From Allorhizobium sonneratiae (GTDB lineage Bacteria; Pseudomonadota; Alphaproteobacteria; Rhizobiales; Rhizobiaceae): DNA of 64,000 nt. This document shows, one piece after another, positions 3,436 through 32,381 of the stretch. Position 1 is the stretch's first letter. Every line of letters starts with the position of its first letter. The notes under the pieces were generated by a model that saw nothing but the letters and a program-made list of their open reading frames with translations, made no database searches and was not told the DNA's origin. The position numbers were made by a program, and so were the translations under genes. The stretch covers positions 434,001 to 498,000 of the forward strand of contig NZ_JAMKOJ010000001.1 in the NCBI RefSeq assembly GCF_023700755.1, written 5' to 3'.

Positions 3436-4829
3436 GCCGCAAGACCCGGAAAAAAGCAGAATCCTTTGCCGCTGAAACATCCGCAACCGAGCGAAAAAAT
3501 CTCGGTGTTGAGCAACGCAGCCTGATTGCCAATGCCGCCAATGACATCACCATTCCGTTTTATACCGGTGCGCTTCAACATGCCGATGACACGTTGATCC
3601 AGCGCGGCGGTGGCAAGGGTCTTAAAATCTATGATGAGATCAAGCGCGACACCCATGCGTCTGCCTGCCTGACCAAACGCAACAAACATCTGGTAGCGCG
3701 TGAGTGGGAGGTGAATGCTGCCTCCGAAAAGCCGCTCGATGTGGAAGCCGCCGATTTTGTGCGCGATGTGTTGAAGACCCTGCCATTTGACCGGATCTGC
3801 GAAGACCTTTCCGGGGGCGCATTGCTCAAAGGTTTTGCTGTCAGCGAAATCATCTGGCAGCGCGATGGCAACCGCATCAGGCCGGAAAGGATTGTCAGCC
3901 ACGATCAGCGCCGCTTTGCTTTTGGTCAGGATGAACGGCCACGGCTGCTCACTTGGACGAATATGAATGACGGCATCGAACTGCCAGACCGAAAATTTAT
4001 CGTTCATCGTTATGGCGTTGTCGGCAATAATCCTTACGGCCTCGGCCTTGGTCATCAATTGTTCTGGGCGGTGCTGTTCAAGCGTGAGGGCGTGGCCTTC
4101 TGGCTGCACTTCCTTGACAAGTTCGCCGGTCCCACCGTCATTGCCGAAACCCCTTACGGTATGTTGAGCGATGAGCAGCGCCGTCTGCTGAACAATCTTG
4201 CCAGCATCCGCACCAGCTCTGCCGTGACCGTGCCGGTCGGGACCGCCGTTAAATTCTTGGAAGCGGCCCGTTCCGGCTCGGTCAGCTATCAGGACTGGCT
4301 GGATTATTGGGACAAGCAAATCTCAATCTGCATCCTGGGCGAAACGCTCACCACCGACATTGGCTCTAACGGTTCTCGTGCTGCTGCCGAAACCCATGCC
4401 GATATGCTGGACCTGCTGGTGGATAGCGATGCCGATCACCTGTCCGATAGTTTGCATGAACAGCTTGTCTGCTGGCTGATCGATTATAACTTTCCGGGTG
4501 CTGCCATTCCCCATGTCTGGCGTGTGCGCCCAAGCAACGAGAAGGCCAAGGCCGAAACCCGCAAAGCCAAAGCCGACGCCGCCACCTCGGAACATGCCGC
4601 CCTGATCGACATTATCGCCAGTGCTGCCCATATTGAGGATGATGACACCGCCCGCGAATTTATCACGGCCTTCGATCTGACCCATAACTTGTCTGACGAG
4701 GCGATTGATCGGCTGGTGGAAGCACGGTTTGCCTTTATGGAGGGCAAGCGACCAAAACGGACGCCCGATCATATGCCTGCATTCTCCACCCTGTTCGGGC
4801 CGCTCGGCTCAAAAAAAAACGGCATTTGA
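3432..4829 (+). CDS. Portal protein, DUF935 family (Mu gp29-like)
   Basis: The 465-residue protein matches the DUF935 portal family: an N-terminal region with Y-T-G-A-L-Q-H-A-D-D, a central block I-H-R-Y-G-V-V-G-N-N-P-Y-G-L-G-L-G, and G-E-T-L-T-T-D near residue 305. The portal forms the dodecameric DNA gate at the capsid vertex and docks the terminase. The GTG start at 3432 overlaps the terminase stop. A Lys/Ala-rich stretch around residues 360-385 may be a flexible or coiled-coil part of the C-terminal crown. Confidence 0.9.
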   Translation: MSRKTRKKAESFAAETSATERKNLGVEQRSLIANAANDITIPFYTGALQHADDTLIQRGGGKGLKIYDEIKRDTHASACLTKRNKHLVAREWEVNAASEKPLDVEAADFVRDVLKTLPFDRICEDLSGGALLKGFAVSEIIWQRDGNRIRPERIVSHDQRRFAFGQDERPRLLTWTNMNDGIELPDRKFIVHRYGVVGNNPYGLGLGHQLFWAVLFKREGVAFWLHFLDKFAGPTVIAETPYGMLSDEQRRLLNNLASIRTSSAVTVPVGTAVKFLEAARSGSVSYQDWLDYWDKQISICILGETLTTDIGSNGSRAAAETHADMLDLLVDSDADHLSDSLHEQLVCWLIDYNFPGAAIPHVWRVRPSNEKAKAETRKAKADAATSEHAALIDIIASAAHIEDDDTAREFITAFDLTHNLSDEAIDRLVEARFAFMEGKRPKRTPDHMPAFSTLFGPLGSKKNGI

Positions 4830-6385
4830 CGGCAAGCTTTGCCGATGATGCCGACCCCGTCAGTGATCTGACGGATCAGCTCGAAGAGTTGGCCGCAAAC
4901 CTTTCCACCCGTCGCCTCAACACCATCCGCACCGCCCTTGAGGCAGCAAATGATTATCCAGACGCCGCCCGCGCCATTCTGACCCTTGGCGCAAAATGGA
5001 CGCCGGATGCGCTTGGCAAACTGTTGGGCGACGGCTTGGAGCTGGCAGCGCTTCAGGGCCGCGAGGCGGTGTTTACGGACGGCGAGGACGACGGCGCACG
5101 CTTTGCCGATGCCGACGTGTTCAACCAGCCGTTCAAGGAACAGATCGACTTCTTCACCCAGAAGCGCGGCAAGCCGACCAAAGCGTGGACCGATGCCCTG
5201 CGCGGCACCCATGACCGCGCCTTTGTCATTGCCGGAGCAACCGATCTTGCCATGCTCTCGGATTTCCAGACGGCCATTGCCAGTGCCATGCAAAACGGCA
5301 CTACCTTTGCCGATTTCCAGAAAGACTTTGACAGGATCGTTGCCAAATACGGCTGGGCCTATAAGGGCGAACGCGGCTGGCGCAGCCGGGTGATTTTTGA
5401 AACCAACCTGCGCACCAGCCACATGGCCGGTCGCCTGCAACAGATGCGCGACCCGGATGTGCTGAAACTTCGGCCCTATTGGGAATATCGCCACGGCGAA
5501 ACCCGCAAACCCAAAATTCCCCGTAGCCAGCATGTGGCGTGGCACGGCAAGGTGTTGCGCCACGATGACCCGTTCTGGCAAACCCATTTTCCGCCCAATG
5601 ACTGGCGCTGCTCCTGCGGTGTCCGCTCTCGTTCCTTGCGGGATTTGAAACGCATGGGCAAAGAAGCGCCCGATCCATCACCGGAAATTCTAACGGCACC
5701 CATGTTGGACCCCATCACCGGCCAGTTGATCGAACACCCGCAAGGTGTGGGCTATGGCTGGGATTATGCCCCCGGTGATTTGTGGGAGCGCGGCCTTGTG
5801 CCATCCAACCTGATCGAACAAGGCACCGTGCTTGATCACAACCCGCGCATGGCCGTCGAGATCGACGCGCCTGAACCGTTAGAGGATTTGCTCAAAAAGG
5901 CCAAACCCTTCAAGGCCAAGGCGCTGCCCGACGGCTTGCCCCCGGAAGATTATGTCCGCGCCTTCCTCAAACCCTTTGGCGGCGACATTGGTAAGGCCGT
6001 GCTGTTTGAGGATAAGGCCGGGACGAAAATCCCGATCTCAGATCAATTGTTCCGCGATGTATCGGGTGCGCTCAAAGTCACCAAGCGCGGGCGTCATCGG
6101 CTGGTGGCGATGATGGCAGAAGCCTTGATGGACCCGGACGAGATCTGGATGGGCGTTGCGCGAAAGCTCAATGCTGCCGACGGCGAAACCGAGGATCTCG
6201 TGTTGGATCGGCGCTATATCCGCCTTGATCCCAAAAGCGGCATTCAGATTGTCTTTGAAATCGGCGAACGTCTCTGGGAAGCCATCACCAGTTATAACCC
6301 GACCACCAAAAAGGGCGACCCGGATTTTAACGCGCTGGACCGACGCCGGGGCGGCAAGCTGCTTTACAAACGCCCGAAAGCATAA
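4826..6385 (+). CDS. Mu F-like head morphogenesis protein with C-terminal BECR-type nuclease-like domain
   Basis: The 519-residue protein starts at TTG 4826, overlapping the portal stop. Residues about 90-270 form the Mu F-like minor head domain, ending in the typical W-H-G-K-V-L-R-H-D-D-P-F-W and N-D-W-R-C-S-C-G-V-R-S signature. Residues about 372-519 are a separate domain (I-S-D-Q-L-F-R-D-V, K-R-G-R-H-R-L, P-D-E-I-W, R-R-Y-I-R-L, then S-Y-N-P-T and L-L-Y-K-R). This resembles the phage-associated barnase/EndoU/colicin/RelE-like nuclease domains (PBECR group) often fused to this head protein. Minor head proteins can be ejected with the DNA, so the domain may act in the infected cell. The nuclease assignment is from remembered family patterns. 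A hairpin terminator follows the stop at once. Confidence 0.85.
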   Translation: MTASFADDADPVSDLTDQLEELAANLSTRRLNTIRTALEAANDYPDAARAILTLGAKWTPDALGKLLGDGLELAALQGREAVFTDGEDDGARFADADVFNQPFKEQIDFFTQKRGKPTKAWTDALRGTHDRAFVIAGATDLAMLSDFQTAIASAMQNGTTFADFQKDFDRIVAKYGWAYKGERGWRSRVIFETNLRTSHMAGRLQQMRDPDVLKLRPYWEYRHGETRKPKIPRSQHVAWHGKVLRHDDPFWQTHFPPNDWRCSCGVRSRSLRDLKRMGKEAPDPSPEILTAPMLDPITGQLIEHPQGVGYGWDYAPGDLWERGLVPSNLIEQGTVLDHNPRMAVEIDAPEPLEDLLKKAKPFKAKALPDGLPPEDYVRAFLKPFGGDIGKAVLFEDKAGTKIPISDQLFRDVSGALKVTKRGRHRLVAMMAEALMDPDEIWMGVARKLNAADGETEDLVLDRRYIRLDPKSGIQIVFEIGERLWEAITSYNPTTKKGDPDFNALDRRRGGKLLYKRPKA

Positions 6386-6408
6386 AAGGCCGGGGTGATC
6401 CGGCCTTT
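6385..6408 (+). terminator. Hairpin terminator after the F-like head gene
   Basis: Perfect 9-bp stem AAAGGCCGG / CCGGCCTTT with a 6-base loop, overlapping the stop of the head gene and followed by TGTGT rather than a long T run. It probably attenuates rather than fully stops late transcription, because gpG continues 80 bases further on. Confidence 0.6.
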
Positions 6409-6490
6409 GTGTCAGGGAGCTAGCTGGACCACCACCGGTCATCGCGTGCCTGACACTGCAAATATAAGCCAATCATAAGGGAAAGTCGAT

Positions 6491-6955
6491 ATGAACGGCA
6501 TCAGCTACAAGGCCACCATTGATGACGCCGACATGCGCGAAAAGCTGGCCAGCCTGATTGCCAAGATGCAGCGGCCACAGGGCTTTTACAAAAACGTCGG
6601 CGAACACCTGCTGAATTCGGTCAAGGACAATTTTGAAGCCGAGACCGCCCCGGATGGCACCCGCTGGAAAACCCTGTCCCAAGCCACACGCGACTTGCGC
6701 TCGAAAAAATACGGCAACGCCCCCGTCACCATCCTGCGCGCCTCTGGCGATCTGATGAACTCCATCAACATGCAAGCCAGTGACACCGATGTGCGGATCG
6801 GCTCAAGTCTTGTTTACGCCGCCATCCACCAGTTTGGCGGCGATGCTGGCAGAGAAAAGAAGGTCACTATCCCGGCGCGGCCTTATCTTGGGTTGTCCTC
6901 GGTCGATGAGGGTGAGGTGGTGGCGATTGCGGAGGAGTGGTTGGCGGTTGACTAA
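6491..6955 (+). CDS. Virion morphogenesis protein, Mu gpG-like
   Basis: The 154-residue protein fits the phage virion morphogenesis (gpG / P2 gpS) family: G-x-H-L-L-N-S-V near residue 37, F-E-A-E-T-A-P-D-G-T-R-W-K-T-L (about 50-64), I-L-R-A-S-G-D-L-M-N-S-I, and Y-A-A-I-H-Q-F-G-G near 112, ending with I-P-A-R-P-Y-L-G-L-S. These proteins act in head or tail completion. The start has a clear AAGGGAAA site. In Mu, gpG is followed by the protease gene I. Here a 3.8-kb antisense gene comes between, its stop only 10 bases from the gpG stop. Confidence 0.88.
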   Translation: MNGISYKATIDDADMREKLASLIAKMQRPQGFYKNVGEHLLNSVKDNFEAETAPDGTRWKTLSQATRDLRSKKYGNAPVTILRASGDLMNSINMQASDTDVRIGSSLVYAAIHQFGGDAGREKKVTIPARPYLGLSSVDEGEVVAIAEEWLAVD

Positions 6956-6965
6956 CTACAGGACA

Positions 6966-9900
6966 CTATTCGAAACTCGCAGCAACATCTCGCTCGATTT
7001 GTCTCTCATGTTCTCGCCAAAGATCGATGTCTCCTTGTAATTGAAGTTCAGCATCGGATAAAGTCTTCGTGATTTCAGGGTCTCCATCAATTATTAAGGC
7101 TTTTAACAGAGGCTTTCGTCTCTCCAAAATATCAGCGTAGGAGCCGCTCCAGCAAGTTTGCGAAATTTTAGGTAGATATTCCTTAATAATCGCTCTTTTA
7201 TCTGGTGCGTTGTTTAATAGGTAAATCGCGATTTTTGACAATGAGGCCTGGTGATTGCCATCACTGTCAGACCTTTCAAAAAGATCACACGTTGCCGCTG
7301 CAAATGGGTATCTGTCTATCGGCGATACCTTACACCAAGCCAAAAGGGTTTCTTCTGAAATCTCCATCAACAAAGACTGCTCTTGATCAGAAAAATCACT
7401 TCCCATCATCCTACGAGCGGTCTTGTAACTTCCATCATCGTCGGGTTGATAAATTGCATTGAGTGACAGCGTTGGAAAGAACTTAAAAAACGGAGACAAT
7501 ATTTTTCCACGATCAATATTATAGTATCTTTCAGGACGTTTCTCATTATCTAAAAAATTGGTCAGAGCCTTTATTACTTCATTTTCTGAAGCGTTTTCTG
7601 AAAGGGCAAAACATAAGGCAGGATTTAATTTGTAATCAAGGCGATAAACATCCGTATTTACCGATGTCCAGTCAACTTCACCAAAAAAAATCAGTGCTAC
7701 CCTACTAAGGTCACTAATGTATTTAAGGCCCTTTGCATTCTTGCGGTGAATCACGCTGGAAAGTATCTCGAAGGATGCGGAACAGCCGTCCTTTCCATGC
7801 TTGTTTAGCTCGCTGAGCAGTGACCCGATTTGATCGGGGGAGAATGTATCTGTGACCCGGTCATTAGCAAGATTACTGAAGCGCCATATTGGCGTCCGGC
7901 CATTTTTAATAGCAAGCATAAGCCTATCAAAGGCTTCACTGCCCATGACGCCCTGAGATTGTAGTTCAATAAACCAACTTGACCAGACATCATCATAAAG
8001 AGCTCTGTCTAAAAATAGTCCCACAGCTACAGGGTCAATCTCACTCCACCCCGCGATTATGCCGCGAACGACCGTCGTTGAAATAGCCTCTTCTTTCCCG
8101 GCGGCTATCAAGATTCGAATTTTTTCTAGAAGATCAGCAACAGGAGCGGCAGACTTTCCTAGACCTCTTCCAAATGAATACTCTCCGAATCCGCCGTATT
8201 TTTCTATGAAGCATGGAATAAGCGCATTTATTGCGGCACTATTTTTCCCGACCTGCTCGCCAAGTTTTTCGGCGTATTGTTCTCTAGTTTCCCATGACAT
8301 GGGGGCATTATCATCGTCAAAATCATAATAATGTGCGCGTCCTTTGGAGAATATACGTGCCATTACTTCAGTTATAAGATCATTTGGTCTGAGAATTTTT
8401 TCAAGTTCTTCAATCTCTTTAATTGATTCAGGCTGAGGTTTTGATTTTTGAAAGTGAATTATAGATTTTGCGGCATTCCAACCTTCTGGCCAGCTTTCTA
8501 TCGAGACAATTCGTTTTGTCATTTCGGCGAGAAAAGGACGTAATTCAGCGATATTCCAAAGTCCTTGAAATTTATTGCCAAGCACAATTTTGATTTCTTC
8601 TGCATCTACACCTCCAGATTCAACAATTGACATGCATTTTGTCAGCCACGCCTTAAACCAGTTCTCCACCTCAGCAGCTGTCGCAGGACGCCACCCCGAA
8701 TTGCGAGGAAGAGATCCGATATCGAGTGGTGGATATGAGGTAAAGTGGGATGTTTTGAGTGTTGCGCCTAACGCGTTAAAACCTAGCGCCTTAATTTGGG
8801 GATCGTCACTACTCAACAATTGGTCAACAGCCGCCTGTTTTTGTACCAAAGTTGCATGTGTATAAGAGTAGCAAATATAAAAAAGAGCAAGCAATCGCTC
8901 CTTTGCCAATTTTTTATTGTAGTGCTGATCACCGAAATTGGCAAAAGTCACGAGTAAGTCTACAGATTTTTCAAAATATTTAGCATCATACGCAATATGG
9001 GCTACGAGCTTGATGAAGCGTCCGCTGTTCCTGTTCAGGATTGAGATGAAATTTGTTATGGATAGAGCTTTAGATATATGCGCGAGCGCCAAATCGGGGG
9101 CGAGTGGTGCCAACCAAACAAACATCTGTTCTTGATATTCATTTAGCCCTGCGACGTCGGATAAGCTTCCGTCTGACGACATAATGGATCGCGCTATATC
9201 GACCGCCTGTGGGCAACTCTGCAGAAAACTAAGGCGACGAGCAAACGATCGTGCCACACGCTCCGATGTATTAAAAAAGAAATGTTGCGTTACGTCCTCA
9301 ATATTCCCATTTTCTAAAGCGCGAACAGCAAGATTATTAGCGATGGCATGTGGCAATATTGCTCGCCATTCGCCACGTTCTTGTAGCAAACCACGTCTAC
9401 GGAGTTCCGCCATGTACCGGGCAAAAACTCCAACCGTGCAATCCGCAAATGATGAAAGCATGGAAAGCTCAGAGGTTTCGCTACGATCCATTCCGTTGAA
9501 TGAATAAAGTAAGCTAGCCGCTTCGGCGCTCCGTAAAAGATCATCATTCTCTTTGTTGTTTTGGTGAAACAGCCGTTTAAACAGGTCGGCGCTTTGAAGC
9601 TGCGCTAAGTCGCCTGATTGCCTAGATGTTGCCGCAAGTGCAAATGCTACACGGGCATTGCCATCTGAATAATCGGCGATACGAATAGCGTCGGCGCTGC
9701 TCAAGCCTTGGTATTTCCGCCTAAGAAGGTCGAGAATTGCGTTTGTTGACGTACCCTCCAAACGGTAAACTGAAGTGCCCTCGGTAAAATCATCCCTTAC
9801 ATCATATTCAACGGTGATAAGCTTTAATTGGCAGCCTGGACGGCGGACCAATTGTGAAAGGCGCTCGTGTTCCGCTGGACTGCAATTATCTACAATGATC

Positions 9901-10793
9901 GTGCAATCGGCTTTTTGGGACTGCAGCGCTTCAACCATGCTGCTTGGCAGTGGGTCGATCACGTTAGATAAATCGCAATAAATAACGCTTTCTGATGCGG
10001 GTACCGAATGAGAAGGGAAGACACGGGGATCGAAGAGCGCCTGAACAAAACGGGTTTTACCAACACCTGAAAGCCCGACAATTCGACTTACCGATGGCGC
10101 ATGTAAATTGCGCCTAAGAGTGTCAATTGCCTGCTCAATTGTTTTACCTTCACTTGCATCTGGCACGAAAACGCGAACTTTATCATCAACAATGTATTCT
10201 GCGTTTACATCATGTTCATTGTAAGCCCATGGGCCGTAAGGTTGCCAGCCTCGTATTGGTTCGCCAATCGCTTCTCGTACCCAAGTTACAACCGCAGGAA
10301 ATTTTTCCACCCAATCGGCTAACCGCCTCATGCAGTAAAAGTCGGCAACTATGATTTCGCCAAAACCATGTGCTTTAAGTGTTTCCTTTATTTTATCGAT
10401 GCGGTCTTTGAGATGTTTATCAGAGCAGTCGTCACGCGAAGATACAATAATGTATGCTCCATCTTCTGAATATAGCTCACTAAGAACTTCCCGAGGTTTA
10501 CCCTGCGGTGCCACTTCTCCTGGAATTTTCGATGGGGGAAAAGCCTCCGCCTTCACTTGAAATACGGCGCTCGGCCTTTTTATAAAATCTAGTCCTGTCG
10601 AGCCTTTTGCAAGTTTAACTCGAACATCAACGCCTCCGTCCTTCGCGCGCTGATCACCGCCCCACGTCACACCAGACTCCGGTAAGCCAGTTGCACGGCA
10701 TTCTGCTTTTGCCAAGCGGGCAACGAGCTCCCGAGCCTGCTCATCATTCAATTGTTTGATTTGCTTCTTATCGACGGAGAAAATTGTTCTCAT
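6966..10793 (-). CDS. PD-(D/E)XK nuclease-STAND NTPase, Avs-like anti-phage defence protein
   Basis: The protein has 1275 residues. Residues about 10-170 look like an Mrr/Cap4-type PD-(D/E)XK nuclease: E22 region, G-G-V-D-V with D56, and F-Q-V-K-A with Q79 and K81. Residues about 205-450 are a P-loop NTPase with Walker A G-L-S-G-V-G-K-T-R (240-248) and Walker B I-I-V-D-N (299-303), typical of STAND proteins. The remaining 800 residues are helical and repeat-like without transmembrane segments, as expected for a sensor region. Nuclease-STAND-sensor is the layout of Avs proteins, which in known cases sense phage terminase or portal and then cut DNA. The gene is antisense to the head operon, its stop abuts gpG, and it is visibly AT-richer than its neighbours, so it is probably acquired cargo. 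ATG at 10793 has GGGGAT upstream. The family assignment is by architecture; which Avs type it is cannot be told by eye. Confidence 0.8.
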   Translation of the reverse strand: MRTIFSVDKKQIKQLNDEQARELVARLAKAECRATGLPESGVTWGGDQRAKDGGVDVRVKLAKGSTGLDFIKRPSAVFQVKAEAFPPSKIPGEVAPQGKPREVLSELYSEDGAYIIVSSRDDCSDKHLKDRIDKIKETLKAHGFGEIIVADFYCMRRLADWVEKFPAVVTWVREAIGEPIRGWQPYGPWAYNEHDVNAEYIVDDKVRVFVPDASEGKTIEQAIDTLRRNLHAPSVSRIVGLSGVGKTRFVQALFDPRVFPSHSVPASESVIYCDLSNVIDPLPSSMVEALQSQKADCTIIVDNCSPAEHERLSQLVRRPGCQLKLITVEYDVRDDFTEGTSVYRLEGTSTNAILDLLRRKYQGLSSADAIRIADYSDGNARVAFALAATSRQSGDLAQLQSADLFKRLFHQNNKENDDLLRSAEAASLLYSFNGMDRSETSELSMLSSFADCTVGVFARYMAELRRRGLLQERGEWRAILPHAIANNLAVRALENGNIEDVTQHFFFNTSERVARSFARRLSFLQSCPQAVDIARSIMSSDGSLSDVAGLNEYQEQMFVWLAPLAPDLALAHISKALSITNFISILNRNSGRFIKLVAHIAYDAKYFEKSVDLLVTFANFGDQHYNKKLAKERLLALFYICYSYTHATLVQKQAAVDQLLSSDDPQIKALGFNALGATLKTSHFTSYPPLDIGSLPRNSGWRPATAAEVENWFKAWLTKCMSIVESGGVDAEEIKIVLGNKFQGLWNIAELRPFLAEMTKRIVSIESWPEGWNAAKSIIHFQKSKPQPESIKEIEELEKILRPNDLITEVMARIFSKGRAHYYDFDDDNAPMSWETREQYAEKLGEQVGKNSAAINALIPCFIEKYGGFGEYSFGRGLGKSAAPVADLLEKIRILIAAGKEEAISTTVVRGIIAGWSEIDPVAVGLFLDRALYDDVWSSWFIELQSQGVMGSEAFDRLMLAIKNGRTPIWRFSNLANDRVTDTFSPDQIGSLLSELNKHGKDGCSASFEILSSVIHRKNAKGLKYISDLSRVALIFFGEVDWTSVNTDVYRLDYKLNPALCFALSENASENEVIKALTNFLDNEKRPERYYNIDRGKILSPFFKFFPTLSLNAIYQPDDDGSYKTARRMMGSDFSDQEQSLLMEISEETLLAWCKVSPIDRYPFAAATCDLFERSDSDGNHQASLSKIAIYLLNNAPDKRAIIKEYLPKISQTCWSGSYADILERRKPLLKALIIDGDPEITKTLSDAELQLQGDIDLWREHERQIERDVAASFE

Positions 10794-11106
10794 TTAAAAT
10801 ACATCCCCATCGTCCGAACCGAATCAGCGCTATGAATACCCGTGCAGCTTGCAATATTAGGTTATGCAAACGAGTGGCGCTACTATTGGATCAGAGGAAA
10901 CATGGTTCTGTTTAGAATGACGGCATTGTAAACGTTTGTCCCTCCATTCAAGCAAATGATACGTGTTTTCCAATCCCCTCGCGTTAGACCCCCGTTAGAA
11001 ACCGGCTACGGCCCCATCCAGCCCGCATCCTTGCGCCACAATTGCAATGCGGGCTTGAAACTCCCCGCCAACTGTCGCATGTTGGCCTTGCGAGACGCAT
11101 TGAACT
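10794..11106. other. Intergenic junction between defence gene and head operon
   Basis: I see no convincing gene in this stretch. It should hold the promoter of the defence gene (reading left), but no clear -35/-10 pair stands out. A 9-bp inverted repeat AGCCCGCAT (11020-11028) / ATGCGGGCT (11047-11055) could form a hairpin. The composition shifts back from AT-rich to GC-rich near 10980, which probably marks the edge of the inserted block. Confidence 0.4.
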
Positions 11107-11127
11107 GACCGGACCTGACGTCCGGTC
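11107..11127 (+). terminator. Hairpin GACCGGAC-N5-GTCCGGTC with T run
   Basis: Perfect 8-bp stem with a 5-base loop (CTGAC), followed by TTTTTGTTTT, so a strong intrinsic terminator on the + strand. A copy with one loop base changed occurs at 25391, and a shorter relative with the same CGGAC-N5-GTCCG core at 17720. All three sit just before a backbone gene restarts. Confidence 0.7.
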
Positions 11128-11180
11128 TTTTTGTTTTGGGCAAGGCGGCATGGTGGCTTCAGATGATTTCTGGAGCCGAT

Positions 11181-12317
11181 ATGACCACCGCATCGAGCAC
11201 ACCCACCAAGACCACCACCGCCCGGATTGAGGTTTTCCGCCCCGGGACGTTTCAGCCGATGGAAGGCGATGCGCTCACCTATACGGCTGCCGATTTGAAG
11301 GCGGTGGCGGATGCGTATGACCCGGCAACGGCTCCGGCTCCGGTTGTGGTTGGTCATCCTTCGACTGACGCGCCAGCCTATGCCTGGGCGACGGGGTTTG
11401 ATTATGACGCCAGCGAAGGGCGGCTTTATGCCACCGTGGGCGAGATCGATCCGGCCTTTTCCGAGGCCGTGAAGGCCGGACGCTATAAAAAGGTCAGCCT
11501 GTCATTCTTCCGGCCCGATCATGCGGCCAATCCGGTTCCCGGCACCTGGTATCCCAAACATATCGGCTTTCTGGGCGGTGCGGCTCCGGCGGTGTCGGGA
11601 TTGAAGAACGTCCAGTTTTCCGCTGCTGACGCCAGCGTCACCGTGTCGGCCGATTTTGGCGAACGCGGTTTTGAAGAGACGTCCAGCCTTTTGCGCTCGC
11701 TTCGGGATTTTTTCATCGAGAAGTTTGGCATGGATGACGCCGACAAGGCTTTGCCGTCCTACCGGATTGATTGGCTCTCTGATGCCGAGATCACGCCGCC
11801 CGCGCCGCAGCCGTCATTTTCCACACATCCTAATGTTCTTCCGACCACAAAGGAGCCTGTTGTGACACAGCCGAACCCGGACTTTGCCGCCCGCGAAGCC
11901 GATCTGAACGCGCGTGAGGCGCGGCTTAAAGCCCGCGAACGCGAAGCCGCAGAGGCCGAAAACGCCGCCTTTGCCGAACAGCTCGTTGTTGATGGCCGCT
12001 TGCTGCCCGCCTCAAAAGATAAGGTGGTGTCGATCCTCAACGCCTTGCCCACGGAAACCGCCGTGAGCTTTTCCGCAGGCGAAGCCTCGGTTCCCCTTGC
12101 TGATGCCTTGCGTGATCTTTTGGCGGCACAGCCCAAAGCCGTCTCGTTCGGGGCGTTGGATCTGCCGGAAGCCGGTGCAGATGACGTCAGCGCCTCTTTT
12201 GCCACCGACGGCAAGCCGGTGGACCCCGCCGCCATGGAGCGCCACACAAAAGCGCTTGCCTATCAGAACCAGCACCCCGGCACGGATTATCTCACTGCCG
12301 TGCGGGCTGTCGGTTGA
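11181..12317 (+). CDS. Phage protease / scaffold, Mu gpI-like
   Basis: The 378-residue protein matches the Mu-type prohead protease family. The N-terminal domain (I-E-V-F-R-P-G-T-F, L-K-A-V-A-D-A-Y-D-P, then V-V-V-G-H-P-S-T-D-A-P-A-Y-A-W) is followed by L-S-F-F-R-P and a flexible region. A charged helical C-terminus (E-A-D-L-N-A-R-E-A-R-L-K-A-R-E-R-E) resembles a scaffold. It processes the head and helps assemble the capsid shell. ATG 11181 has GGAG six bases upstream; ATG 11163 and TTG 11136 are less likely starts. The ribosome site lies 44 bases after the strong hairpin at 11107, so a promoter or antitermination is needed. Confidence 0.88.
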   Translation: MTTASSTPTKTTTARIEVFRPGTFQPMEGDALTYTAADLKAVADAYDPATAPAPVVVGHPSTDAPAYAWATGFDYDASEGRLYATVGEIDPAFSEAVKAGRYKKVSLSFFRPDHAANPVPGTWYPKHIGFLGGAAPAVSGLKNVQFSAADASVTVSADFGERGFEETSSLLRSLRDFFIEKFGMDDADKALPSYRIDWLSDAEITPPAPQPSFSTHPNVLPTTKEPVVTQPNPDFAAREADLNAREARLKAREREAAEAENAAFAEQLVVDGRLLPASKDKVVSILNALPTETAVSFSAGEASVPLADALRDLLAAQPKAVSFGALDLPEAGADDVSASFATDGKPVDPAAMERHTKALAYQNQHPGTDYLTAVRAVG

Positions 12318-29633: not shown

Positions 29634-29831
29634 ATGAAAAATATCCGTTGCGGCACATGCACCGCCCTTTTGTTCAAGGCGGGGCGGGCATTTGCCGGTG
29701 ACCTCGAAATCAAATGCCGCCGTTGCGGCACCATCAATCACATGAGGCCAGCCGAGCCCGAACATGACCGCCTAAAACAACAAGAGCGGCAGAGAAAAAC
29801 GGCATCCCATGACGAAGCACAAGGCCGGTGA
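29634..29831 (+). CDS. com: Com-like zinc-finger translational regulator
   Basis: A 65-residue protein starting M-K-N-I-R-C-G-T-C-T-A-L-L-F-K-A. It has two CxxC knuckles, C6-C9 and C28-C31, and a basic tail. Mu Com has the same start (M-K-S-I-R-C, then L-L-F-K-A) and the same knuckles. In Mu, Com binds the mRNA and opens the start region of the DNA modification gene mom. Here the next genes code for a ParB/methyltransferase protein and a CmoA-like enzyme rather than Mom. A five-codon frame (ATG 29620) ends in TGA overlapping the com ATG, which may couple translation. The 3' end overlaps the next gene. Confidence 0.85.
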   Translation: MKNIRCGTCTALLFKAGRAFAGDLEIKCRRCGTINHMRPAEPEHDRLKQQERQRKTASHDEAQGR

Positions 29832-30006
29832 TCCGGCCGATTTTCCCGAAAAGACCAGAGAGCCCGACGCCACCTTGCGCGTGGGGCCGCATGGTCTCCT
29901 GATCCCGCGCCAGACCTTTGAGGCTTGGGAAGCACGGCTCACTGCAGAGGTCGGCTTTTCCAAAGCGGCCATCGCCGCCGAACTTTGCCGGAGGTTGGGA
30001 CTGTGA
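29809..30006 (+). CDS. Small protein of the modification cassette, unknown family
   Basis: A 65-residue protein whose ATG lies inside the end of com and whose stop overlaps the GTG of the ParB/methyltransferase gene. The C-terminal half (L-L-I-P-R-Q-T-F-E-A-W-E-A-R-L-T, then F-S-K-A-A-I-A-A-E-L-C-R-R-L-G) looks like a small helix-turn-helix-like unit. The full overlap on both sides implies a stoichiometric partner or regulator of the modification enzymes. I do not recognise the family. Confidence 0.6.
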   Translation: MTKHKAGDPADFPEKTREPDATLRVGPHGLLIPRQTFEAWEARLTAEVGFSKAAIAAELCRRLGL

Positions 30007-31484
30007 GCGATCTCTATCCTCCCTGCGCGTTTCATCACGATCCGATCAATCCGCGCCAGCGTGACGAGGCGCGTTTTGCCCTCGTGCTGCGTTCCTTGCG
30101 CAAATTCGGTTTTCTCCTGCCGCTTTATGCCCGCCAGGACGGTCTCTTGCTGTCCGGTCATCAGCGTTCAGACGCGGCGGCGCGTCTGGGCTGGTCCATT
30201 CCTGTTCATGTGGTGGCAAAACATATCCGCGACACGGCAGGGCTTAACCTGACCTTTAACCGCGCCACCAACGATTTTACCCTGATGGATGTTCATCATG
30301 ACCGGATGGATGCAGAGGCACTGCGCCATCTGCTGGAAAGCCTGCCTGATGCGGATGATCCCTATCCCTGTCGCAATCCGGTTGATGTCGCGATTGCTCC
30401 ACTGCTTGCGGCAAACCTTCATGGCTTCAACCGCTATGCCTGTAACGCCGCCCGCCAGCTGGGGGAATATGGCATTCGAATGCCGATCGTCATGGATGAA
30501 GACGGGACTGTTCTGAACGGGATCGGACGCCTGCAATATGCGTCCGAACGGGGTGAGGCCACTCTTCCCGCAGTGGTCGTCTCACGCGAAAAGGGCGAGG
30601 CGATCCGACGTGTCATGAACGGGCTGAGTATGGATTTCCGTCTGAATGACGGCTTCAGGGATGTGCTGCGGACCAATGCCTTTCGCCGCGCCCGACAGCG
30701 GCGAAAGGCGCTTGGCAGCGGTTATCTGTTTCCTTTGCGCGAAAGCGGCAAGGAGCGTTGCAGAGATTTCTCGATCAGCGCCAATGCCGGGCGTCTGAAG
30801 GCGACCTTTGGTCCGCGCATCCTCGACTTCGGTTGCGGCCATGGCGATGAGGCGCGGATGCTGCGCAAGATCGGCATTGGTGTGACCACATTCGAGCCTT
30901 TCCGTTCAACAGGCGGTGTGCCGTCGCGAAAGCGAGGGCGGTATTCCGCTTCTGCTTTTCTGCGCGCTGTCAAGGACGGGCAGCGCTTCACATCCATTCT
31001 GCTGTCGAGCGTGCTCAACAGCGTGCCTTTTGACGCTGACCGGCGTCACATTCTGACGATCTGCGCGGCATTGTGCGACCCGGAAACCACGCTGTTTGCT
31101 GCGGCCCGCTCGCGGCATGATCCGAACTGGGTGGAAACCTCGCAGGGTATCGGCCTTGGGAAAACGGCGGCCCGTTCAGCCCGCTTCATCCTGCTCGATG
31201 AGCCGGGCATGTCGGTGTCGGAGCTGAACGCAAATCCCAAGGTGCAACGATATTTCCAGCCCTCCGAATTCCGCAGTCTCTTCGAAGATTTGTTCGAAGA
31301 TGTGTCTATCGGCCTGCACATTAATAACGTCACGGCCACTTGCCGCAGGCCGAAGCCTATCGATCTTGACCGGTTGCGCCAGGCGCTTCGGTTCGAGTTT
31401 GATTTGCCCTATCCCGAAGGCCGCATGGGCTTTGCCGACAAGGCGCTCTCGGCCTTCTCGCAGCGTCTGGGGGTGTCGCTGTGA
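30003..31484 (+). CDS. Double ParB-like domain fused to SAM methyltransferase-like domain (DNA modification candidate)
   Basis: The 493-residue protein starts at GTG 30003, overlapping the previous stop. Residues about 13-72 are a ParB/Spo0J-type domain (I-N-P-R-Q, S-L-R-K-F-G-F-L-L-P-L, S-G-H-Q-R-S-D-A-A-A-R-L-G, I-P-V-H-V-V). Residues about 145-195 repeat the pattern (Y-G-I-R-M-P-I-V-M, T-V-L-N-G-I-G-R-L-Q-Y-A, L-P-A-V-V-V). Residues about 268-445 are a Rossmann methyltransferase with motif I L-D-F-G-C-G-H-G-D-E-A (274-284) and L-L-S-S-V-L-N-S-V-P (333-342). From memory this last part resembles the putative methyltransferase associated with DNA phosphorothioation clusters. The N-P-P-Y/D-P-P-Y motif of adenine-N6 methylases is absent. 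It is presumably the DNA-acting component of the cassette. Confidence 0.75.
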   Translation: MSDLYPPCAFHHDPINPRQRDEARFALVLRSLRKFGFLLPLYARQDGLLLSGHQRSDAAARLGWSIPVHVVAKHIRDTAGLNLTFNRATNDFTLMDVHHDRMDAEALRHLLESLPDADDPYPCRNPVDVAIAPLLAANLHGFNRYACNAARQLGEYGIRMPIVMDEDGTVLNGIGRLQYASERGEATLPAVVVSREKGEAIRRVMNGLSMDFRLNDGFRDVLRTNAFRRARQRRKALGSGYLFPLRESGKERCRDFSISANAGRLKATFGPRILDFGCGHGDEARMLRKIGIGVTTFEPFRSTGGVPSRKRGRYSASAFLRAVKDGQRFTSILLSSVLNSVPFDADRRHILTICAALCDPETTLFAAARSRHDPNWVETSQGIGLGKTAARSARFILLDEPGMSVSELNANPKVQRYFQPSEFRSLFEDLFEDVSIGLHINNVTATCRRPKPIDLDRLRQALRFEFDLPYPEGRMGFADKALSAFSQRLGVSL

Positions 31485-32113
31485 AAGACTGGACCTTTAA
31501 CGGATTGGAGCGCGAATTCGACAGCCATGTGCGCCAGCATCTGCCCTGGTATGATGTGGCTGCCGACGCTGTGGCCCTGATTGCCAGACACTATATCCCC
31601 CAGCGCGGCCTCATCTACGATATCGGCTGTTCGACGGGCAATGTGGGCCGCTCCCTCGGCGACATCATCGAAGCCCGTGAAGCGCGCCTGATCGGCATCG
31701 ACAATTGCGCGGATATGGCAAAGGCCTATCAGGCTCCCGGAGAGCTGGTCATTGCTGACGCTGGCAGTTTCGAGTTTGAGCGGTTCGATGTGGCAGTGAT
31801 GTTTCTGACGCTGATGTTCATGCCGGTGGCTGAGCGGTCAGACTTCATGCGCCGCCTGCGGTCACGTCTCAAACCGGGCGGGGCTATCGTCATCTTCGAC
31901 AGATGCGTGGCGGCAACCGGCTATGAGGCAACGGTGATGATGCGCATGATCTGGAACGGCAAGTTACAGGCTGGTGTGTCATTCGCTGAGGTGGCGGAAA
32001 AGGAAATGCGCCTTGCCGGTATTCAACGGCCCATCGAACCGCACGAACTTGGAGGGGAAGCGCTCGAAATATTCCGCTTCGCCGATTTCGCCGGATGGAT
32101 CATTCGCGGGTGA
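31481..32113 (+). CDS. CmoA-like SAM-modifying enzyme (carboxy-SAM synthase homologue)
   Basis: The 210-residue protein starts at GTG 31481 inside the previous stop. Compared with E. coli CmoA as I remember it, the N-terminus D-W-T-F, the L-P-W-Y versus V-P-G-Y turn, motif I Y-D-I-G-C-S-T-G-N (46-54) and I-G-I-D-N (71-75) align without large gaps. So do L-T-L-M-F-M-P-V-A-E-R (109-119), L-K-P-G-G-A-I-V and the C-terminal F-R-F-A-D-F. CmoA converts SAM and prephenate to carboxy-SAM, used by CmoB on tRNA. This copy lies in a phage modification operon without cmoB, so it probably feeds the upstream enzyme. The Arg199 of E. coli CmoA that holds the carboxyl group appears to align with Glu175, so the donor or product may differ. 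A plain methyltransferase is the alternative. Confidence 0.75.
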   Translation: MKDWTFNGLEREFDSHVRQHLPWYDVAADAVALIARHYIPQRGLIYDIGCSTGNVGRSLGDIIEAREARLIGIDNCADMAKAYQAPGELVIADAGSFEFERFDVAVMFLTLMFMPVAERSDFMRRLRSRLKPGGAIVIFDRCVAATGYEATVMMRMIWNGKLQAGVSFAEVAEKEMRLAGIQRPIEPHELGGEALEIFRFADFAGWIIRG

Positions 32114-32172: not shown

Positions 32173-32214
32173 TGTCCAGAAGCTAACGCCAATTTGTCCA
32201 GAAGCTTCCGCCGC
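32173..32214. repeat. Two transposase-site-like direct repeats at the prophage right end
   Basis: TGTCCAGAAGCT occurs at 32173 and again at 32195, exactly 22 bases apart. The similarity extends to CGCC further on, so two 22-bp units lie side by side. Mu R1 and R2 MuA-binding sites have this size and arrangement. The prophage end should follow within a few tens of bases, possibly at the CA ending at 32220; the exact base is not provable without the left end. Confidence 0.6.
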
Positions 32215-32304: not shown

Positions 32305-32381
32305 TGGCGCACCCGACAGGATTCGAACCTGTGACCTTTGGAATCGGAATCCAACACTCTATCCAGCTGAGCTACGGGTGC
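32305..32381 (-). tRNA. tRNA-Arg (anticodon CCG)
   Basis: The reverse complement folds as a full 77-nt cloverleaf with encoded CCA. The acceptor GCACCCG pairs with CGGGTGC, the D-arm has A-G-C-T-C-A-G, the anticodon loop is TTCCGAT between TTGGA and TCCAA, and the T-loop is GGTTCGAATCC. It reads CGG codons. It is the first clearly chromosomal gene beyond the prophage end. Confidence 0.95.

Follow-up and report, generated by a model that had tools for sequence, protein, structure and literature searches.

The 64,000-nucleotide stretch of Allorhizobium sonneratiae DNA analyzed here (contig NZ_JAMKOJ010000001.1, positions 434,001 to 498,000; hereafter the window) contains a Mu-like prophage whose right end holds a set of four overlapping genes (29634–32113). 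They encode a Com-like protein, a 65-residue protein, a fusion of two ParB-like domains with a methyltransferase domain (P0001, 493 residues), and a relative of CmoA (P0002, 210 residues), the enzyme that makes carboxy-S-adenosylmethionine (carboxy-SAM). Judged by gene context, this ParB-methyltransferase probably represents a second class of carboxy-SAM-dependent DNA carboxymethyltransferase, unrelated to the first and carried in the cassette of a Mu-like phage. An earlier sequence-only reading of the window had proposed the overlapping cassette, its place in a Mu-like prophage with a Com-like gene at the right end, and the CmoA kinship of the last gene. These proposals are borne out: a check of the open reading frames confirmed that starts and stops overlap at 29809, 30003, and 31481, a Mu transposase, Mu head and tail families, and the Com profile PF10122 were found, and the best NCBIfam family for P0002 is CmoA (TIGR00740).

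The same reading held that no DNA-modifying pair of this type had been described. This claim fails in the face of a report published in December 2025 (PMC12783734, here drawn on in part). Synechococcus phage S-B43 encodes CmoA, the C5-cytosine carboxymethyltransferase CmoX, and the ligase CmoY, and the product is 5-carboxymethylcytosine together with its glycine amide. In the crystal structure of CmoX, R350 binds the carboxylate, and ParB-domain genes were noted near CmoX. A preliminary search by the same authors, as given in the portion of the report used here, yielded no CmoA-linked N6-adenine or N4-cytosine candidate (PMC12783734). DNA carboxymethylation by a phage CmoA pair is strongly supported by gene context and is no longer wholly new. 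The new part is a transferase family that is unrelated to CmoX, yet travels with CmoA. Among the open-access PubMed Central papers listed in our searches, none reports a ParB-methyltransferase/CmoA pair, as judged by title and abstract.

The pairing extends well beyond the window. A tblastn search of phage records with P0001 returned 14 records covering at least 80% of its length, namely Gordonia phage Evaa, twelve Pseudomonas phage records of the SM1/PaMx31 kind, and Aeromonas phage HJ05. A CmoA-like gene lies directly next to the ParB-methyltransferase in SM1 and HJ05 and three genes downstream in Evaa; these genes match TIGR00740 with E values of 5.7e-26, 7.1e-35, and 3.7e-30, respectively. 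Broader linkage scans used the ParB-methyltransferase alignment alone as the query and covered genome contigs (11 loci), viral contigs (80 of 218 relatives), and the earlier loci. The 96 entries above 300 bits, a threshold that excludes L001 (91.6 bits), L002, and L004, count the window twice (WIN and L003) and include many close relatives; 92 of them contain a CmoA-like gene, with CmoA being no part of the query. Three of the four misses (L017, L019, and L020) are contigs that break off within the gene or right at its end. Grouping by identity, from which L012 and L017 were left out, gave 27 sequences below 90% identity, 15 below 70%, and 9 below 50%. The CmoA-like gene accompanies 14 of the 15 and 8 of the 9 representatives, with L018 as the sole exception. 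The hosts of these phages include Gordonia, Pseudomonas, Aeromonas, and Alphaproteobacteria. In Roseibium sediminis and Stappia stellulata, the four genes stand in this order as well, and the last two again overlap by 4 bases, which shows that the cluster did not come together by chance. Among 397 genomes of the order to which the host belongs, a search with P0001 at E values up to 1e-20 found the copy in the window only. Annotation hides the cassette in OQ383211, OL343755, OL473897, OL622073, and PP869205, where the products named under the P0001/P0002 matches are proteins of the tail fiber, of tail assembly, or of DNA replication.

A reverse scan, in which the P0002 subfamily was the only query and the best 80 of 589 relatives were covered, found a ParB-methyltransferase as partner in 35 loci, CmoX in 41, neither in 4, and both in none. 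All 41 CmoX proteins carry the motif arginine where ordinary C5 enzymes have asparagine. At a lax threshold, two of the 35 seemed to have both partners, but the C5 enzyme that they carry is weak (52 bits) and has an ordinary motif. Likewise, among 172 CmoA-bearing entries searched for the two transferases, none contains them together. We rejected the idea that the C5 methyltransferases found in a few ParB-methyltransferase loci are CmoX: those of L010, L022, and L026 show GNAV, and those of L150 and L151 show GNGV. No motif was matched in the C5 enzyme of L011, and that of L030 is unread, with the same score and position as that of L026. Since the ParB-methyltransferase takes the place of CmoX, the best reading is that the phage makes carboxy-SAM and moves its group to DNA. 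The transferase is proposed to work like CmoX without being CmoX. To this extent the sequence-only reading, which had the phage transfer the group of a carboxy-SAM-like cofactor to DNA, remains the preferred one; the likeness that it drew to momylation goes too far.

The two kinds of partner appear to have been exchanged several times. A 65-row CmoA tree, built by a quick method and containing long branches, shows 8 partner changes versus 18.6 in shuffles, and its starred branches force at least 5; for five of its rows (L105, L106, L107, L109, and L110), the CmoX label was assigned by hand and without a scan for the ParB-methyltransferase. A 37-row tree of the subfamily, built by a careful method, shows 5 changes, and 4–5 occur in 90% of the bootstrap trees. 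Several swaps of partner by CmoA are therefore likely, although not proven. The CmoA-like protein of Moraxella phage Mcat8, the closest relative of P0002 among phage records (47%), has a CmoX ortholog as its partner (8yf3, E 6.3e-81, arginine aligned). The S-B43 report raises the possibility that phage CmoA depletes SAM (PMC12783734), and CmoA could accordingly be read as a means of countering SAM-dependent host defence, by acting as a sink for SAM or by blocking a signal, next to an independent ParB-methyltransferase. We consider this very improbable, given that CmoA is tightly paired with one of two transferases and that the 4-base gene overlap is present in all five Mu-type cassettes inspected.

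P0002 (31481–32113, plus strand, GTG start), the proposed carboxy-SAM synthase, matches TIGR00740 with an E value of 3.4e-17 and phrog_4752 with 9.1e-44. Its nearest PDB sequences are E. coli CmoA (4gek and 4iwn) and the H. influenzae entry 1im8. The roles of residues in CmoA and CmoB have been described (PMC3663124 and PMC4482062, both used in part). With numbering mapped by hand from the alignment, the SAM-site residues Tyr39, Asp62, Gly64, Ser66, and Asp89 of E. coli CmoA are kept in P0002 as Y24, D47, G49, S51, and D74, and two other named residues differ (Asn132 to Phe108 and Glu164 to Asp140). In the structure ranking of its AlphaFold2 model (predicted local distance difference test, pLDDT, 88.1), three CmoA entries lead, tied with others; the match to 4gek has Z 22.9 and a root-mean-square deviation (rmsd) of 2.8 over 210 aligned residues. 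All 22 sampled CmoA-like proteins linked to ParB-methyltransferases match TIGR00740 (best E 5.2e-51), and a corrinoid-methyltransferase model also matches all 22 (best 1.6e-10).

P0001 (30003–31484, plus strand) is assigned to phrog_5475 with an E value of 1.3e-91. It has a GTG start, and its mechanical open reading frame begins further upstream, at 29925. The first ParB-like domain comprises residues from about 11 to 118 (30033–30356, plus strand; phrog_498, 620, and 8071), and the second residues from about 149 to 219 (30447–30659, plus strand; phrog_15396, best stretch 149–219). The methyltransferase domain (residues 264–428; 30792–31286, plus strand) matches Methyltransf_23 (PF13489, E 2.8e-7), and its motifs DFG.G, EP, and NS.PF..DR are conserved among 24–27 sequences. 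Searched at E values up to 1, the protein shows no match to the C5-methyltransferase family PF00145, and it is without a domain of the CmoX type with SPPC and motif-X arginine. In the AlphaFold2 model (pLDDT 86.8, predicted template-modelling score 0.84), structural matches to METTL6 and other class I methyltransferases fall mostly in residues 217–452.

Each transferase type has its own helper genes. In other phages, a small ParB protein precedes the ParB-methyltransferase, and its tail resembles the 65-residue window protein (29809–30006, plus strand), which matches the end of Gordonia phage Evaa gp1 (47% over 43 residues) and a 66-residue Roseibium protein (43% over 65 residues). The window protein is not an unrelated extra; it is the C-terminal tail domain of that small ParB protein, here encoded as a free-standing unit. 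The Mu-like phages seem to have kept this domain and lost the ParB core. A tail profile, built from five tails with that of the window included, was matched in 90 of the 96 ParB-methyltransferase entries of the linkage scans, in 29 of the 35 of the reverse scan, and in none of 42 CmoX loci. For SM1 and HJ05, no tail match is among the matches listed.

The second helper is a protein of about 160 residues, assigned to phrog_32036 from three scanned members that match it. It occurs near 118 of 126 ParB-methyltransferase/CmoA entries and near none of 42 CmoX entries, counts in which some contigs occur in both scans; ligases show the opposite distribution (0 of 126 versus 18 of 42). After dereplication, the protein accompanies 36 of 43 ParB-methyltransferase rows versus 0 of 22 CmoX rows, and ligases 0 of 43 versus 8 of 22, where the hand-labelled L105, L106, L107, L109, and L110, unscanned, are counted among the 22 as without both partners. 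By annotation, S-B43, PaBG, and TurkishDelight do carry an asparagine-synthase or amidotransferase gene. As seen in L057 (7422–7916) and its kin, the phrog_32036 protein has conserved LLDLNYT, TARP, and ESNP.TR motifs and is a regular member of the ParB-methyltransferase module. It is not in the stretch around the window or in the Roseibium, Stappia, SM1, HJ05, L013, L116, and L118 loci. A Pfam search with this partner gave no match, and a search of the host genome found none, as did the same search of 14 control genomes. By eye and motif, the protein looks like a HAD phosphatase. Neither the prophage nor the 126 scanned ParB-methyltransferase/CmoA entries yielded a ligase of the asparagine-synthase type; only the Nostoc locus has some. 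A mark close to momylation (carbamoylmethyl on adenine-N6), as the sequence-only reading had envisaged, is unsupported or too far a step.

The position of the cassette behind Com also points to DNA. In Mu, Com is the translational activator of the modification gene, and its control runs through an mRNA hairpin. The Com-like zinc-ribbon protein of the window (29634–29831, plus strand, 65 residues) passes the Com profile PF10122 (E 2.3e-14; 53 bits, cut-off 22.9) and matches phrog_6417 ("translational regulator") and phrog_13819 ("gpCom"). We surveyed the best 80 of 315 Com relatives on viral contigs, scanning one representative per named downstream cluster with Pfam. The genes downstream were a C5 methylase in 25 loci, N6/N4 methylases in 7 and 6, a D12 methylase in 5, and an ABC-GNAT protein in 8; our own profiles found the ParB-methyltransferase in 3 and CmoX in none. 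At least some of these phages therefore use the Com slot for DNA modification, which supports a DNA target. Com precedes several kinds of modification gene, like a general switch for a modification slot.

A number of observations pull the other way. P0002 scores 62.9 bits against TIGR00740, far under the cut-off of 193.3, and its fold is matched equally well by 3dtn, BelI, and CysG, none of them CmoA (Z from 22.5 to about 22). Arg199, which contacts the carboxylate in CmoA (PMC3663124), is Glu175 in P0002 and is absent from 11 of the 21 ParB-methyltransferase-linked CmoA proteins in the alignment. Together with the generic class I fold of the methyltransferase half of P0001, these points favor plain methylation, in which the ParB-methyltransferase would be an ordinary SAM-dependent DNA enzyme, with the CmoA-like protein serving the same pathway as another plain methyltransferase. 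This alternative is unlikely, since the same CmoA subfamily is partnered in 41 of the 80 reverse-scan loci by a CmoX with the carboxylate-binding arginine, Arg199 is kept in the other 10 of the 21, and every sampled linked protein matches TIGR00740. In addition, SpCmoA, a proven maker of carboxy-SAM (PMC12783734), carries a glutamate at the Arg199 position in our alignment, as does P0002; the loss of Arg199 is therefore not decisive, and we set aside the idea that it excludes carboxy-SAM synthesis. We also set aside the placement of the last gene in a plain methyltransferase family without CmoA similarity, which the sequence-only reading had named as a refutation: the sequence profile ranks CmoA first, and the structure does so only in a tie.

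On the side of the transferase, the closest fold to the methyltransferase half is METTL6 (Z 14.2, rmsd 3.5, 193 aligned residues), a generic class I likeness; the target base was not readable from fold or motif. No DNA-methylase model of Pfam matches P0001, the DNA N6/N4 amino-methyltransferase families PF01555, PF02086, and PF02384 being without a match at E values up to 1. R223, R229, R347, and K413 are fully conserved (24 of 24) and are candidate carboxylate binders by conservation only. METTL6 is a tRNA base methyltransferase, and the HAD-like appearance of the phrog_32036 partner (again by eye and motif) would suit a nucleotide step, so carboxy-SAM might be made for an acceptor other than DNA, either tRNA or a nucleotide modified before polymerization. 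We consider this unlikely as well: P0001 has two ParB-like domains and a ParB partner, the mutual exclusion with CmoX concerns an enzyme that acts on DNA, and DNA-modification genes fill the Com slot of related phages. ParB fusions are also common in phage DNA methyltransferases, such as the m6A/m4C enzymes encoded upstream of terminase genes (PMC6536676, used in part).

The remaining points against a carboxy-SAM-dependent DNA carboxymethyltransferase concern gene context and control. The true miss of the linkage scans, L018 of Nostoc linckia, has no CmoA within about 6 kilobases on each side; a CmoA-like gene (166.8 bits) lies elsewhere in that genome. In this locus (4763–11641), PF00733 asparagine-synthase homologs flank the ParB-methyltransferase on both sides, as CmoY often flanks CmoX. 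The weaker relative L001 is also without CmoA. The control speaks in favor, CmoA being present in 0 of 12 loci of an ordinary ParB-N6/N4 DNA methylase, but the set, obtained with a Wolbachia-phage methylase query, is small and made up mostly of near-identical Wolbachia loci. The starred branches of the subfamily tree alone force just 1 partner change. The CmoA-linked C5 enzymes of two Staphylococcus phages (L106, 4994–6001; L107, 4181–5179) are without the motif-X arginine of CmoX and perhaps represent another way of reading carboxy-SAM. Finally, RNA folds around the gene starts are not clearly better than those of shuffled sequences (five stretches, z from −1.53 to 0.49), so that nothing special fitting Com control was seen.

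From family membership and partners, we suggest that the CmoA-like protein would convert SAM and host prephenate into carboxy-SAM. The double-ParB/methyltransferase, probably with the ParB-tail protein as a partner subunit, would then place the carboxymethyl group of carboxy-SAM onto bases of the phage DNA. By analogy with Mu, Com would restrict expression to late infection, and progeny DNA marked in this way would resist host nucleases. A more specific reading, which we offer tentatively and with less than even confidence, is that the phrog_5475 ParB-methyltransferases are a second class of natural DNA carboxymethyltransferases that depend on carboxy-SAM, and that they act on a base nitrogen, most likely adenine N6 or cytosine N4, and not on cytosine C5, with the ParB tail and phrog_32036 as dedicated partners. 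The product of the Mu-like phages could then be a free-acid cousin of the carbamoylmethyl-adenine of Mu, made along an entirely different route.

The host genome (94% complete) encodes a prephenate dehydratase and therefore presumably has prephenate. It holds no CmoB above the cut-off, in line with the earlier remark that cmoB is not nearby, and no second match to P0002. Three weak asparagine-synthase-family matches (22.7–29.6 bits) all lie outside the prophage. The idea that a CmoX elsewhere performs the transfer was set aside: the sole C5 methyltransferase found in the host has the ordinary GNAV motif. Pfam families of the Mu type encoded within the window include Portal_Mu (PF06074; 3432–4829, plus strand, E 1.3e-98), Phage_Mu_F (PF04233), and Baseplate_J (PF04865), among others, and a Mu-type transposase (PF09299 and PF02316) is encoded 5′ of the window. 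The right prophage end contains two copies of an end-type repeat, GTCCAGAAGC (32174–32205, plus strand), and a related sequence is inverted at the left end, outside and 5′ of the window. Within the window, GTCCAGAAGC is matched 9 times with at most one mismatch, versus 4.05 expected. A search for the exact prophage ends and a target duplication did not find them. Just beyond the right end lies a tRNA-Arg (CCG) gene (32305–32381, minus strand). The head protein at 4826–6385 is Mu gpF-like and fused with a PBECR2 nuclease domain. A 1275-residue open reading frame (6966–10793, minus strand) runs against the direction of the late genes, with phage morphogenesis genes on one side of it and head genes on the other; it has no Pfam match at E values up to 0.001.

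Until the 2025 report, 5-carboxymethylcytosine was an unnatural base known only from engineering. That report covers one enzyme class, acting on cytosine C5, and the ParB-methyltransferases offer a concrete candidate for another. The family occurs in Mu-like prophages, contigs of uncultivated viruses, and cultured phages such as Evaa, SM1, and HJ05, and the proposal is therefore testable at once. If correct, it would provide an enzyme that tags DNA with a carboxylate handle and has another choice of base or sequence, and would broaden a kind of base modification that was first found in phages in 2025.

Like the CmoA-CmoX-CmoY system of S-B43, the window combines a phage CmoA relative with a DNA-targeting transferase, has no CmoB, and has ParB genes near; in other phages, members of its CmoA subfamily are found with CmoX. 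In contrast to S-B43, the transferase is a double-ParB/class I methyltransferase rather than a C5-cytosine enzyme, the 126 ParB-methyltransferase/CmoA entries that were scanned contain no ligase of the CmoY or TurkishDelight gp124 type, and this type of transferase has helpers of its own, the ParB tail and phrog_32036, which did not appear in any of the 42 CmoX loci covered. With Com/Mom of Mu, the cassette shares the Com-like zinc ribbon directly upstream and the right end of a Mu-like prophage, but it has two methyltransferase-fold enzymes where mom would be. The CmoA/CmoB pathway to cmo5U in E. coli tRNA has a CmoA relative as the proposed source of carboxy-SAM in common with the window; here, however, P0002 is shorter than E. 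coli CmoA and without Arg199, the host is without CmoB above the cut-off, and the partner has ParB domains. M.MpeI N374K (PMC12783734, in the part used here) is a DNA transferase that uses carboxy-SAM, as is proposed here, but it is an engineered C5 enzyme, unlike the transferase of the window.

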